This document shows, one piece after another, positions 3,043 to 61,473 of a stretch of DNA of 64,000 nt (position 1 is the stretch's first letter; every line of letters starts with the position of its first letter). The translations under genes were made by a program, and so were the position numbers. The stretch covers positions 620,001 through 684,000 of the forward strand of contig PNKZ01000001.1 in the NCBI GenBank assembly GCA_013822735.1, given 5' to 3'. The notes under the pieces are model-generated. The model did no database searches. It was not told the origin of the DNA and was given only the letters and a program-made list of their open reading frames with translations. Source of the stretch: Pirellula sp. Lineage in GTDB: Bacteria; Planctomycetota; Planctomycetia; Pirellulales; PNKZ01.

Positions 3043-3055
3043 GAGGATGGGTCCG

Positions 3056-3138
3056 TGGTCAGTTGTCCGTAGTCCGTTGCATTATTACCGACGCTTCATC
3101 ACTCACCACTGACAACGGACTACTGACGACGGACAACT
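3056..3138. repeat. Inverted heptamer arrays (GTTGTCC / GGACAAC type)
   Basis: The left arm reads GTTGTCC GTAGTCC GTTGCA from 3062. The right arm reads TGACAAC GGACTAC TGACGAC GGACAAC at 3110-3137. Both have a strict 7-base step and are mutually complementary, so the transcript of the glyS downstream region could fold into a long imperfect hairpin. The core holds a short ATCACTC-like stretch. Confidence 0.8.
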
Positions 3139-4809: not shown

Positions 4810-4819
4810 GGCGGAGTCA

Positions 4820-4843
4820 GTTGTCCGTTGTCAGTGGTCAGGT
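4820..4843. repeat. Heptamer array upstream of glyS
   Basis: GTTGTCC GTTGTCA GTGGTCA GGTC runs with a 7-base step just 10 bases outside the glyS start codon. It uses the same word as the inverted arrays downstream of glyS (3056-3138) and between accB and accC (39054-39137). Confidence 0.75.
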
Positions 4844-6502: not shown

Positions 6503-6617
6503 GAGTTCGCGCCAACACGCGAAGACGCCAAGTTCGCAAAGATAGGAAGAGAATGCAGGATACGCCGCGAGCACGACTTTCATTTCTGTCTTTGCGTCTT
6601 AGCGTCTTGGCGCGAGG
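6503..6617. repeat. Inverted octamer arrays (CGCCAAGA / CTTGGCGC type)
   Basis: The left arm reads CGCCAACA CGCGAAGA CGCCAAGT TCGCAAAG. The right arm, about 60 bases on, reads CTTTGCGT CTTAGCGT CTTGGCGC. Both step by 8 bases and are mutually complementary. They lie between ubiE and ubiX, inside the presumed transcription unit. A one-armed copy occurs at 26813-26850. Confidence 0.75.
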
Positions 6618-13821: not shown

Positions 13822-13954
13822 GGCCGTAAACTCGTTAGCAATACGTGGGTAAGGGTAGGTCGCCGCTCAGGCCTGTCAAAAGGCCCCACGAACAACCGGC
13901 ATATTCGATGCCGACTGCTTGAGCGCGGTGACGTGCGAACTGTTACCGCGGCAG

Positions 13955-13982
13955 TAGCTAGTTGCTGGTAGCTAGTAGCTAG
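13955..13982. repeat. Heptamer array (TAGCTAG)
   Basis: TAGCTAG TTGCTGG TAGCTAG TAGCTAG, four exact 7-base steps. Same word family as 9592-9619. The surrounding spacer (13822-14070) holds no gene that I can see. Confidence 0.8.
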
Positions 13983-14070
13983 AACAGCGGAGAAAGTCGC
14001 CTAATGTCGACTGTCCTCATTTAGCTCCGGAGCTTGTCTCCGGGAGATATACCGCCGCCGCCGGCGCGTC

Positions 14071-14998: not shown

Positions 14999-15016
14999 GA
15001 ACAGGTTTTAAATTTA

Positions 15017-15044
15017 GCATTCAGCATTCAGCATTCCGCATTCT
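15017..15044. repeat. Heptamer array (AGCATTC)
   Basis: AGCATTC AGCATTC AGCATTC CGCATTC, four 7-base steps, 8 bases downstream of the recG stop side. The word recurs, in inverted pairs, at 26307-26380 and 35460-35529. Confidence 0.85.
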
Positions 15045-15051
15045 CTCGAAC

Positions 15052-17166: not shown

Positions 17167-17187
17167 GACGGCATTCTAGCAAACGGC

Positions 17188-17281
17188 AGGGAGACTAGGA
17201 GACGGAGAGACTCGGAGAACGGGAGACGACAAGCGTAGTGCCTTTCTCCTAGTCTCCGCGTCTCCCGCTCTCCCAGTCTTC
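17188..17281. repeat. Inverted octamer arrays (GGAGAC / GTCTCC type)
   Basis: Left arm: AGGGAGAC TAGGAGAC GGAGAGAC TCGGAGAA CGGGAGAC. Right arm from 17251: GTCTCCGC GTCTCCCG CTCTCCCA GTC. Both step by 8 bases and are complementary, separated by a core of about 22 bases. The element fills the spacer between recG and the 133-residue gene. Confidence 0.85.
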
Positions 17282-17282
17282 T

Positions 17283-23872: not shown

Positions 23873-23971
23873 GAGTGGCGGGTGACGAGTGGTGAGTGAC
23901 GAGTGAAGACGAATCACTCTCTCAAGTTCATCAATCACCATCCGCCACTCATCACTCATCACTCATCACCC
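23873..23971. repeat. Inverted heptamer arrays (GAGTGAC / ATCACTC type)
   Basis: Left arm: GAGTGGC GGGTGAC GAGTGGT GAGTGAC GAGTGAA (23873-23907). Right arm: ATCACTC ATCACTC ATCACCC (23951-23971), preceded by CGCCACTC. All step by 7 bases and the arms are complementary across a core of about 40 bases. The spacer to the next gene continues to 24168 with no other feature seen. Confidence 0.9.
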
Positions 23972-26221: not shown

Positions 26222-26295
26222 CTCGCCCCCGCGTGCGAGCTTGATTGTTCCCAAGCTTGGATCGGGGGAGAGGGAGAGGGTGAGGGGCGAGGGCG
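26222..26295. repeat. CCCTC/GAGGG hairpin element (inverted copy)
   Basis: Reads CCTCGCCCCCGCG, core, then GGGGGAGAGGGAGAGGGTGAGGG. It is the reverse-complement arrangement of the units at 14929 and 26382. Confidence 0.55.
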
Positions 26296-26306
26296 AATGA
26301 AGAAAG

Positions 26307-26380
26307 GCGACTGCTGAATGCTGAACAAGCTTTGAATCGGCGTCGGCTTGTTCAGCATTCCGCATTCAGCAGTCAGCATT
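26307..26380. repeat. Inverted heptamer arrays (GCTGAAT / CAGCATT)
   Basis: Left arm GACTGCTGAATGCTGAACAAGC, right arm from 26346 GCTTGTTCAGCATTC followed by CGCATTC AGCAGTC AGCATT. The arms pair perfectly over GCTTGTTCAGCATTC; the right arm has one extra heptamer. The core is about 16 bases. Confidence 0.9.
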
Positions 26381-26381
26381 T

Positions 26382-26455
26382 CCTGCCCCTTACCCTCTCC
26401 CTCTCCCCGAATTCACGTCGGCGGCAATTGGTCGCGTCGTTCGTCGGGGCGAGGG
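26382..26455. repeat. CCCTC/GAGGG hairpin element (copy 2)
   Basis: GCCCCTTACCCTCTCCC then TCCCCGA, a core of about 38 bases, then TCGGGGCGAGGG. Same order as the unit at 14929-14998. Confidence 0.6.
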
Positions 26456-27367: not shown

Positions 27368-27487
27368 AAGGCAATGCGCGAACCGCGCACTTAGATGTGG
27401 TTGCGGCGCATGAAAATGTGCGTACTCAGCATGATGCGCGCAGTAAACGGCGCGAAACTTTAAACCGTCGCTGCCATTCCTATTTCT

Positions 27488-31455: not shown

Positions 31456-31578
31456 AGACTGAAGACGGGAGACCGAAGTGAAGACTTCGGCGGCCGGCCA
31501 AATCCGTCCTTCGCGCCGACAATGCCGCACCCTATTCTGGATGCCGACGTTGTTTACTTCGGTCTCCAGTCTCCGGTT
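31456..31578. repeat. Inverted heptamer arrays (AGACTGA / TCCAGTC type)
   Basis: Left arm AGACTGA AGACGGG AGACCGA (31456-31476), right arm TTCGGTC TCCAGTC TCCGGTT (31558-31578), each stepping by 7 bases. The core is about 80 bases, longer than in the other paired loci. The right arm ends 5 bases before hisN. Confidence 0.8.
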
Positions 31579-32396: not shown

Positions 32397-33884
<1,488 letters not shown>

Positions 33885-35431: not shown

Positions 35432-35459
35432 GCTTAGTCGGTCCTGGAATCAAATGCAG

Positions 35460-35529
35460 AATGCTGAGTGCTGAATGCTGAACAAGCGAGGCATAAATCC
35501 GTTCAGCATTCAGCATTCCGCATTCAGCA
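35460..35529. repeat. Inverted heptamer arrays between gatC and gatA
   Basis: Left arm AATGCTG AGTGCTG AATGCTG AACAAGC; right arm TTCAGCA TTCAGCA TTCCGCA TTCAGCA (35502-35529). Each steps by 7 bases; the core between them is about 14 bases. The element lies within a single operon, so it must be transcribed with gat mRNA. Confidence 0.9.
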
Positions 35530-35537
35530 TCGCCTGC

Positions 35538-36331: not shown

Positions 36332-36377
36332 CGCCGCACTCTCCAAACGTTATCACTGCCAAAATAGGAAACCGCCC

Positions 36378-36405
36378 AGTATATCCGATCGTCCCCGGCC
36401 GACAA
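36378..36405 (-). promoter_or_regulatory. Sigma-70-type promoter of rpmB
   Basis: On the minus strand, TTGTCG (36405-36400), 16 bases, TATACT (36383-36378). Matches to consensus are four and five of six. The expected start point lies about 40 bases before the L28 start codon. Confidence 0.55.
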
Positions 36406-36484
36406 GGCGGGTTCGCTGTTCGGCGAACCGTGAAAAACTGGGGATACCCGTGGATTCGGGCTTAGCCGCCGCATGTCCGCGCGC

Positions 36485-39032: not shown

Positions 39033-39053
39033 TCTCTCGGGCGTCCGTGGTTC

Positions 39054-39137
39054 GTTGTCCGTTGTCCGTTGCAACGGTCGAATAGCACCTCTTGCGCCCG
39101 CCGCCGTAAGCGCAACTGACTACAGACAACGGACCAC
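39054..39137. repeat. Inverted heptamer arrays between accB and accC
   Basis: Left arm GTTGTCC GTTGTCC GTTGCAA (39054-39074); right arm TGACTAC AGACAAC GGACCAC (39117-39137). Same word as at 3056-3138 and 4820-4843. It lies in the spacer of an accBC operon. Confidence 0.8.
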
Positions 39138-39158
39138 CGATACCCAGACATCGCCCCC

Positions 39159-45778: not shown

Positions 45779-46299
45779 AACTCTGTTCTCCCATCCGTGG
45801 ATAAGGTTCGCTCGGCATCCGCCCACGCCGAGTTTTTACACAATTCCGATACGGCTCAGCCGGCATTACGCCGCCTTGCGCGTCGACTCCGTTCGGATAC
45901 TGATTGCATCGGTGAGTCCGCGGGAGCGAGTTCAGGTGAAAGTCGCCGTTGCGACTCCGATTCTGAGTGGAAATCAGCCCGGCGCGTTAAGCTGTAACGG
46001 TCGCATTGACTTTGATTTGCCTTACATGCCTGTAACCGACTTCGGAGAGAAATCGAGACGATGATTTCGCCTTCAAAGCAATGACGGGGAAGCATGTTCG
46101 CAACCGGTTCGGGATCGTACGGCTGCGCTTCGGGCCGTTTGTACGTTGCGGATGCATTGCCGGCGTCGTCATGCTCGACCCATGCCGGCGATTACTACCT
46201 GCCGAATGCTCAGCGCGGTTCCCGCGCGGGTAGGTGCATCTGTCGTCGCTTCGATGAAACCTTCACGGGTGCGAACGCTTTTTGGGCACCACCAGGCAC

Positions 46300-46337
46300 A
46301 AAAAAACGCTCGGTCCAAAATTTGGACCGAGCGTTTT
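46300..46337 (-). terminator. Terminator of the 106-residue secreted-protein gene
   Basis: ACGCTCGGTCCAAA, two-base loop, TTTGGACCGAGCGT, followed on the minus strand by a T run (the A run at 46299-46306). It is 27 bases after the stop codon. The T-rich other side may make it bidirectional. Confidence 0.88.
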
Positions 46338-46364
46338 GGCTAAACGGCGGGCGATCGCCGCGTT

Positions 46365-46685
46365 CTAGTCGGTGAGCCGATCGTTGTAGCGACGCGGATC
46401 CGATTCCGGCAGTAGGTCGATCGGCGTCTGAGAACGGTAGCTGCGCGGAGCATGAAAGGTTCGCGTCGGGGTCGTCTTCGGCAGTACCGAGATGCTGCGC
46501 GTGCCTTGGGCGACGGCGTCGGGCGTCGGAGCAGCCGGCGTGGTCGCGGCTACGCTGGGAGCACAAGCGTTCTGCGTTGCACAACAATTCGACGCGGTGT
46601 TGCCGCAGCGGCGACCCCGTGCGTCGGCGTTCAGCGCGCACGACCAGACGGCGAAGCCAAGCGAGAATGAAACAAGTTTTACCAT
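46365..46685 (-). CDS. Small secreted protein, SDPRRYN family (106 residues)
   Basis: A signal peptide (MVKLVSFSLGFAVWSCALNADA) precedes a mature region with a Cys-rich start (RRCGNTASNCCATQNACAP, four cysteines), a Thr/Ala/Pro-rich middle and the end DLLPESDPRRYNDRLTD. The SDPRRYN motif is shared with the 82-residue protein 3 kb away. GAGGAG stands 8 bases before the ATG and a terminator follows, so this is a real, separately transcribed gene. It lies between the porin and a two-component system. Function unknown. Confidence 0.75.
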   Translation of the reverse strand: MVKLVSFSLGFAVWSCALNADARGRRCGNTASNCCATQNACAPSVAATTPAAPTPDAVAQGTRSISVLPKTTPTRTFHAPRSYRSQTPIDLLPESDPRRYNDRLTD

Positions 46686-46891
46686 GGGAAAACTCCTCTA
46701 CAGCAAAATGGACGCGCCCGGATCGACCGGGCATTTTAAGGGCCCTGTTCCCCCGACAACCCGCGGCGCATGGGCGAACTTTTGCAAAATTAGCGGCCGA
46801 TAGTCGGGAATTGTTGGAGAAGCGACCTCCGAATCGCCACTAACGGCCGGCGCGGATCGCGACTGTTAGGTCTTCCAAGTCGCTTCCGACC

Positions 46892-61428: not shown

Positions 61429-61445
61429 TGACGGTCTTCAAATCT

Positions 61446-61473
61446 TGAACCCTGAACTCCGAACCCTGAACTA
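61446..61473. repeat. Heptamer array (TGAACCC)
   Basis: TGAACCC TGAACTC CGAACCC TGAACTA, four 7-base steps ending 8 bases before the TatD-like gene start. Confidence 0.8.

Follow-up and report, generated by a model that had tools for sequence, protein, structure and literature searches.

In a 64,000-nt stretch of DNA from Pirellula sp. (hereafter the window; positions 620001–684000 of contig C1), the gene before position 23873 is followed by a foldback with two 26-nt arms (23880–23905 and 23946–23971) that are complementary at 23 positions and enclose a 40-nt core. Between 23905 and 23946 the core carries extra ATCACTC-like units, and because it contains these further copies of the unit, the pairing register of the foldback is ambiguous: in the predicted minimum of the RNA fold, the left arm pairs with the ATCACTC-like units of the core, and the final 24 nt are left unpaired. 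The sequence-only reading of this DNA had five GAGTGAC-like heptamers facing three ATCACTC heptamers at 23873–23971; the complementary arms stand, but the best arms are the two given above, and the core holds further units. The predicted fold agrees with its claim that such units can form a hairpin. The features of the window are the following (window coordinates).

3051–3077 (+), left arm of a foldback, GTCCGTT/GTCAGTT word; same word in congener G001, another in congener G002
3108–3134 (-), right arm of the 3051 element
4813–4843 (+), array with no partner arm detected, GTCAGTT/GTCCGTT word; lag-7 array scan
6507–6532 (+), left arm of a non-heptad foldback, CGCGAAGACGCCAAG type; spacer 126 nt here and 6 nt in G001
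6590–6615 (-), right arm of the 6507 element
13952–13985 (+), array with no partner arm detected, AGTAGCT word; lag-7 array scan
15005–15047 (-), array with no partner arm detected, TTCAGCA word; lag-7 array scan
17189–17222 (+), left arm of a foldback of GGAGAC type, period about 8
17241–17274 (-), right arm of the 17189 element
23880–23905 (+), left arm of the target foldback, GAGTGAC word; 23 of 26 positions complementary to 23946–23971, shuffles 0 of 200
23946–23971 (-), right arm of the target foldback; same pairing and shuffle test
26265–26288 (+), outer left arm of a compound element, GGGGAGAGGG; second copy near C1:747625
26309–26330 (+), inner left arm of the compound element, TGCTGAA word; sequence and predicted fold
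26346–26377 (-), inner right arm of the compound element, TTCAGCA word; sequence and predicted fold
26385–26408 (-), outer right arm of the compound element
31463–31482 (+), left arm of a foldback, GGAGAC/GAAGAC word; G001 holds another word
31553–31572 (-), right arm of the 31463 element
35454–35483 (+), left arm of a foldback, TGCTGAA word; identical in G001
35501–35530 (-), right arm of the 35454 element; identical in G001
39044–39072 (+), left arm of a foldback, GTCCGTT word; same word in G001, other words in congeners G004 and G006
39112–39140 (-), right arm of the 39044 element
61444–61471 (-), array with no partner arm detected, GAACCCT word; lag-7 array scan

Complementary arms were found in all eight spacers for which the sequence-only reading had described arrays built as inverted arms, and dinucleotide shuffles reached the observed score in 0 of 200 cases at each (best ungapped inverted scores of 15.0–22.5, shuffle means of 6.3–7.3), with the best shuffle of spacer 17167–17282 (16.0) lying near the observed 16.5. 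The description of the arms as heptamer arrays fails at two of these loci, 6503 and 17188, which are foldbacks without heptads (arm lag-7 identity of 0.16–0.33, best period of 8). Locus 26307 belongs to a larger element at 26265–26408, in which a TGCTGAA foldback (the locus itself) lies inside a GGGGAGAGGG foldback; a second copy of this compound element is located at C1:747655–747741 (90.8 per cent identical over 87 nt).

The census covered all of contig C1 (1,113,433 bases) and 140 kb of contig C2, together 1.25 Mb of the 6.88-Mb genome, for which our own crude gene calls gave 785 (C1) and 96 (C2) genes and a coding fraction of 85–86 per cent. The 711 spacers (183 kb) contain 71 lag-7 arrays and at most six arrays at every other lag from 4 to 13, while the 39 arrays at lag 14 are a harmonic of lag 7; inside genes, eight lag-7 arrays were found in approximately 1.06 Mb. 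An inverted-repeat scan of the same 1.25 Mb returned 127 foldbacks with arms of at least 14 nt, 28 of which have heptad arms at a mean lag-7 identity of 0.58 (36 at 0.50). The heptad words of the genome are GTCCGTT, TGCTGAA, GAGTGAC, GTAGCTA, GGTTCAG, TTGCAAA, AGTTATG, GGAGACT, AAGACTT and CCAATGA, among others. Inversion is common, as had been proposed, but not universal, since 35 lag-7 arrays in the 1.25 Mb lie outside detected foldbacks. Where two strict arrays lie within 150 nt of each other in one spacer (n = 12), seven pairs are inverted copies of the same word, none are direct copies and five consist of unrelated words; together with the recurrence of one word at unrelated loci, this upholds the earlier claim that independent slippage is insufficient.

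The elements follow a common plan, X-core-X', in which X is usually a G-rich heptad array leading into the core. In the direction of the core, G outnumbers C in the arms of 30 of 36 foldbacks of this genome, five of the six exceptions being members of the CCAA family, and in those of all 22 foldbacks from related spacers. The arrays outside detected foldbacks obey the same polarity rule, 30 of 35 pointing away from the nearest gene (P-value = 3e-5), and thus retain the polarity of half an element. G-rich polarity would be expected of elements that form G-quadruplexes or i-motifs, a proposal made for GGGAATC repeats, the inversion then being a by-product; this explanation is very improbable, and quadruplexes were rejected, because most words, among them TGCTGAA, GTCCGTT, GAGTGAC, GTAGCTA and TTGCAAA, lack G tracts and nevertheless show the same polarity.

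The 28 heptad foldbacks lie between co-directional (24), convergent (3) and divergent (1) genes, the corresponding spacers numbering 464, 99 and 148 of 711, and divergent-gene spacers are under-represented (1/28 foldbacks versus 148/711 spacers; P-value = 0.019 by number). Co-directional elements (n = 30) begin a median of 12.5 nt past the stop codon of the upstream gene and stop 17.5 nt short of the next start, and a heptad element occupies a median of 75 per cent of its spacer. Both the co-directional context and the short distance from the stop codon would suit selected RNA hairpins, intercistronic or at 3' ends, in which pairing is kept while the sequence is free, so that words could be swapped, and in Xanthomonas citri most such repeats are transcribed, according to the accessible text of PMC4692102; we nevertheless consider this explanation unlikely. 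Convergent genes are not enriched among heptad foldbacks, as they would be for intrinsic terminators (3/28 foldbacks versus 99/711 spacers; 33/99 for other inverted repeats), and a T-rich tract (at least five T in seven), although it adjoins 6 of 28 stems versus 6.4 per cent of random spacer points, is missing from the other 22. Terminators were considered and found weakly supported. No Rfam family matched the 64-kb window at gathering scores. The region C1:480–730 kb, which was picked after the list had been seen, holds 17 of the 28 heptad foldbacks and 39 of the 99 other inverted repeats. Genes in this region, which includes the window, are shorter than those in C1:0–500 kb.

Unrelated loci share arms of the same word around mostly unrelated cores. 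The TGCTGAA word has 31 two-unit matches in the 1.25 Mb, and TTCAGCATTCAGCATTC, a 17-base sequence of this word, has 18 exact matches across the whole genome and is present in 5 of 391 other genomes sampled from the phylum, a sample without the three other species of the genus. Of 35 heptad cores, seven have another match in the 1.25 Mb; in the set of 36, 29 have none. The cores of REP-like elements in the same genome behave similarly: another match exists for 9 of 42 in nine named families, among them 0/5 and 0/4 in the two families found beside a Y1 transposase gene. Since the cores of REP-like families are here equally mostly unique, unique cores are no argument against mobility. Across whole elements, related cores are confined to the CCAA family (four copies), the compound element (two copies) and, weakly, C1:980590, and movement of whole elements including the core (MITE-like) was rejected on this ground.

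A link between the heptad foldbacks and Y1 transposases was likewise rejected: of eight Y1 matches in the genome, seven of them above the family cut-off, none is flanked within approximately 1.5 kb by any of the eight heptad words searched (two minor words were left out). Non-heptad REP families flank two of the eight (L140 and L142). Non-heptad REP-like inverted pairs are abundant on C1 and C2, in at least nine families (e.g. TGTAGGGAACGCC, CTGCGCAGATAAC and GTAGGGTGGGTCG), and are located, for example, at window positions 27487 and 40560 and in the 33587–33660 region of C1 (13587).

Orthologous spacers were placed via both flanking genes in 211 pairs (71 with G001, 50 with G002, 69 with G003 and 21 with G004–G006), a comparison that covers C1:495–690 kb and the contigs examined, with one genome per species. 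The target spacer falls outside it, because the 3 of 39 other genomes that match the gene before 23873 all lie outside the genus. In G001, seven of the 10 placeable heptad foldbacks are same-word foldbacks, one has another word and two have none; this count excludes 621926, whose arms pass the lag-7 limit without a recognizable word. A preponderance of one-armed loci, which the sequence-only reading had named as refuting its claim, was thus not seen in G001. A heptad foldback occupies the orthologous spacer in 0 of 9 cases in G003, 1 of 7 in G002, 1 of 3 in G004, 0 of 2 in G005 and 1 of 2 in G006, and its word is always different. The 8 of 10 G001 orthologues with a foldback of any word would be in keeping with selected RNA hairpins, but the low retention in G003 and G002 speaks against them.

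Individual spacers show all of these outcomes. Spacer 659033 (the 39044 element) holds GTCCGTT here and in G001, TTGCCAG in G006 and GTGCTTA in G004; spacer 623043 (the 3051 element) holds GCAAAAT in G002, and spacer 651438 (the 31463 element) another word in G001. Spacer 551288 has an array here, foldbacks of two other words in G001 and G002, and a fourth word in G003 (by eye). Presence and absence are also seen: spacer 653885 measures 5 nt here, 12 nt in G003, 38 nt in G002 and 211 nt with a foldback in G001, where one foldback is nested in another (by eye); spacer 637658 measures 13 nt here and 94 nt with a foldback in G003; and spacer 626501, with the non-heptad 6507 element, measures 126 nt here and 6 nt in G001, the spacers of the nearest genomes being too diverged to reveal a target duplication or a base-level empty site. 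Two stretches of spacer in the window, at 36332–36484 and 45779–46891, are conserved with congeners and have no heptad array; they may contain RNA elements or upstream regulatory sequences.

Over the seven loci that keep their word, identity to G001 is 374/432 in the arms, 133/272 in the cores, 267/399 in the rest of the spacer and 341/420 in the adjoining 30-nt coding ends, and the contrast between arms and cores is a further point in favor of RNA hairpins. Arms are, however, nearly as similar to those at other same-word loci (0.798, n = 44) as to their orthologues (0.837, n = 14), which weakens a strong locus-specific reading and, on sequence comparison, would also fit gene conversion. In the element at 35454–35530, both 30-nt arms are identical between the species, three mispaired positions included, while the core matches at 7 of 17 positions.

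Against G001, the seven orthologous foldbacks differ by 71 edits (43 in the left arm and 28 in the right; counts are approximate because of small indels in some arms) at 63 paired positions. Eight positions are edited in both arms and four of these are matched, three of them at 623043 (the window 3043 spacer), where both arms changed alike. The arms therefore vary largely independently, which the sequence-only reading had named as evidence against itself, yet 158 of 216 positions in the same register still pair in G001 (186 of 216 here). The mostly unmatched edits, in what is a small sample, speak against selection on an RNA stem, and the compensatory changes offered earlier as a sign of such selection are not borne out by wobble pairing: among 51 co-directional foldbacks from this and related genomes, mismatches in the transcript orientation were G.U-compatible in 37 cases and of A.C type in 47 (P-value = 0.885).

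The same edits bear on a local origin, in which replication slippage with a seven-base step builds an array and a foldback or template switch copies its inverted arm. Period 7 alone is enriched, cores are unrelated, the two arms at 623043 carry matched changes, and authors cited in the accessible parts of PMC4679880 and PMC4692102 have suggested that heptamers stem from a seven-base contact of the polymerase. One word nevertheless occurs at many unrelated loci, the mispairs at 35454–35530 are retained across species, the matched positions number 4 of 63, and the order of units in the two arms does not correspond, since permuting the units of one arm did not significantly lower pairing (combined P-value = 0.18, 28 foldbacks). 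We regard a local origin as distinctly unlikely. Arm copying by foldback was rejected as a general origin on the permutation result and the 4 of 63 matched positions; of the inverted-duplication or foldback mechanism that the sequence-only reading took to be implied, what survives is 623043, which does fit it.

The elements look more like dispersed hairpins that are kept, lost or word-replaced between species than like arms copied on the spot. In favor of this view stand the recurrence of words at many loci, the presence, absence and word swapping of elements in congener spacers, the nested and compound elements, the polarity, and the regional concentration shared with other inverted repeats. 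With about even confidence, we interpret them as REPIN-like dispersed foldbacks whose arms are degenerate seven-base tandem arrays, and a mover would have to be postulated. The spreading unit would be the arm pair, because its hairpin, as single-stranded DNA or a cruciform, would be the substrate of an enzyme yet to be named; that the many words would imply a mover that does not read sequence counts against this reading. Within an arm, the word would expand, contract and drift by slippage that preserves the seven-base step, and lone arms would be decayed elements. Insertions would survive mainly between co-directional genes and be purged from the promoter regions of divergent genes. A function at the transcript level may come later, but the interpretation does not depend on it.

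Foldbacks of the pattern GTTGTCMGTTGTCMGTTG-core-CAACKGACAAC, that is, of GTC(A/C)GTT, occur in at least 113 stretches; the 80 matches listed belong, by our own assignment from record titles, to Bacteroidota, Desulfobacterota, Planctomycetota, Acidobacteriota, Cyanobacteria, Chloroflexota, Schekmanbacteria and Gammaproteobacteria. In these 80 and 40 further stretches, 31 of 38 foldbacks built on words different from GTC(A/C)G obey the polarity rule. A vocabulary common to the phyla was rejected: for words apart from GTC(A/C)GTT, a reversed-arm control matched as often or more (9 same versus 19 reversed of 53 at a score of at least 14), and since chance sharing is also expected among many genomes with many words, we claim none. 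Period-7 enrichment was absent in three of the five genomes sampled (three arrays in 200 kb of Hymenobacter, two in 200 kb of Flavobacteriales and none in 86 kb of Acidobacteria). Desulfobacterales bacterium HSG2 (L291–L296, 41 kb) has very dense heptad foldbacks of several words, with a good inverted partner for 17 of 23 arrays. An uncultured Lewinella (G436) matched the reversed TTCAGCA control pattern 71 and 79 times, so that CTTACGA is a very abundant heptad word in that genome. As a tentative extension, which we consider somewhat unlikely, heptad foldbacks may be a broad and so far unrecognized class of mobile hairpins in several phyla, in which the architecture, G-rich seven-base arms pointing inward around a disposable core, stays conserved while the word is free, the same spacer is emptied and refilled, and an enzyme that reads the hairpin and the seven-base step, not the sequence, moves the elements.

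Repeats of seven bases are on record in bacteria, but there is no consensus on how they arose or what they do. Where many words coexist in one genome, architecture can be told apart from sequence: inversion, polarity and the seven-base step recur, and the word is exchangeable at a fixed slot, which argues against explanations tied to one word, such as quadruplexes or one binding protein. The origin of seven-base foldbacks thereby becomes testable with strain-level genomes and transcript maps. In the literature searched, whose coverage mostly leaves out subscription journals, we found no paper on multi-word heptad foldbacks in one genome. As far as that literature shows, the many words in one genome and the reuse of slots with word swapping across many spacers are new; already known, from the accessible parts of the papers, are convergent one-word pairs with the same gene context and polarity in Xanthomonas (PMC4692102) and word replacement in a Nostoc intron stem (PMC4476775).

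The comparison with known systems sharpens this division. The GGGAATC heptamers of Xanthomonas and the GGGGA(C/T)T heptamers of Nostoc, as far as the available portion of PMC4692102 describes them, resemble the present repeats in their seven-base unit and their location in spacers, mostly between co-directional and seldom between divergent genes; 70 and 75 convergent inverted pairs are reported in two Xanthomonas species, and the polarity rule, with the G-rich strand leading away from the gene, was already published there for one word and is followed here. Those repeats have one word per genome and form quadruplexes, whereas here the words are many, most of them lacking G tracts, and congeners differ in the word that one spacer holds (PMC4692102). 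The P6b stem-loop of the Nostoc trnL intron is likewise built on one of two seven-base words, the whole region being repeatedly replaced by the other word, but it is a single slot in a self-splicing intron, whereas many spacers and many words are involved here (PMC4476775, accessible text).

Cyanobacterial STRR heptamers likewise form degenerate tandem arrays of a seven-base unit between genes. Of the 41 arrays in 125 kb of one cyanobacterium, six had a good inverted partner within 150 nt and 35 did not (score below 14). The TAACTGA arrays of Beggiatoaceae, Cyanobacteria and Bacteroidetes, in the part of PMC4679880 that is accessible, are also seven-base direct repeats in spacers, and their complement, TCAGTTA, differs by one base from TCAGTTG, a frame in which the GTCAGTT units of the 3051, 4813 and 39044 elements can be read; they mostly share a single orientation and precede start codons, inversion being reported for one of 170 sets, whereas inverted pairs are common here. 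REPINs, which are inverted REP doublets moved by RAYT transposases, share with the present elements the conserved inverted arms, the less conserved spacer and the dispersal between genes, and their single arms are interpreted as decayed pairs, a reading that we have applied here. The arms of REPINs are palindromes tied to RAYT, whereas those described here are heptad arrays for which no link to a Y1 transposase was found (PMC3116915, in its available part).
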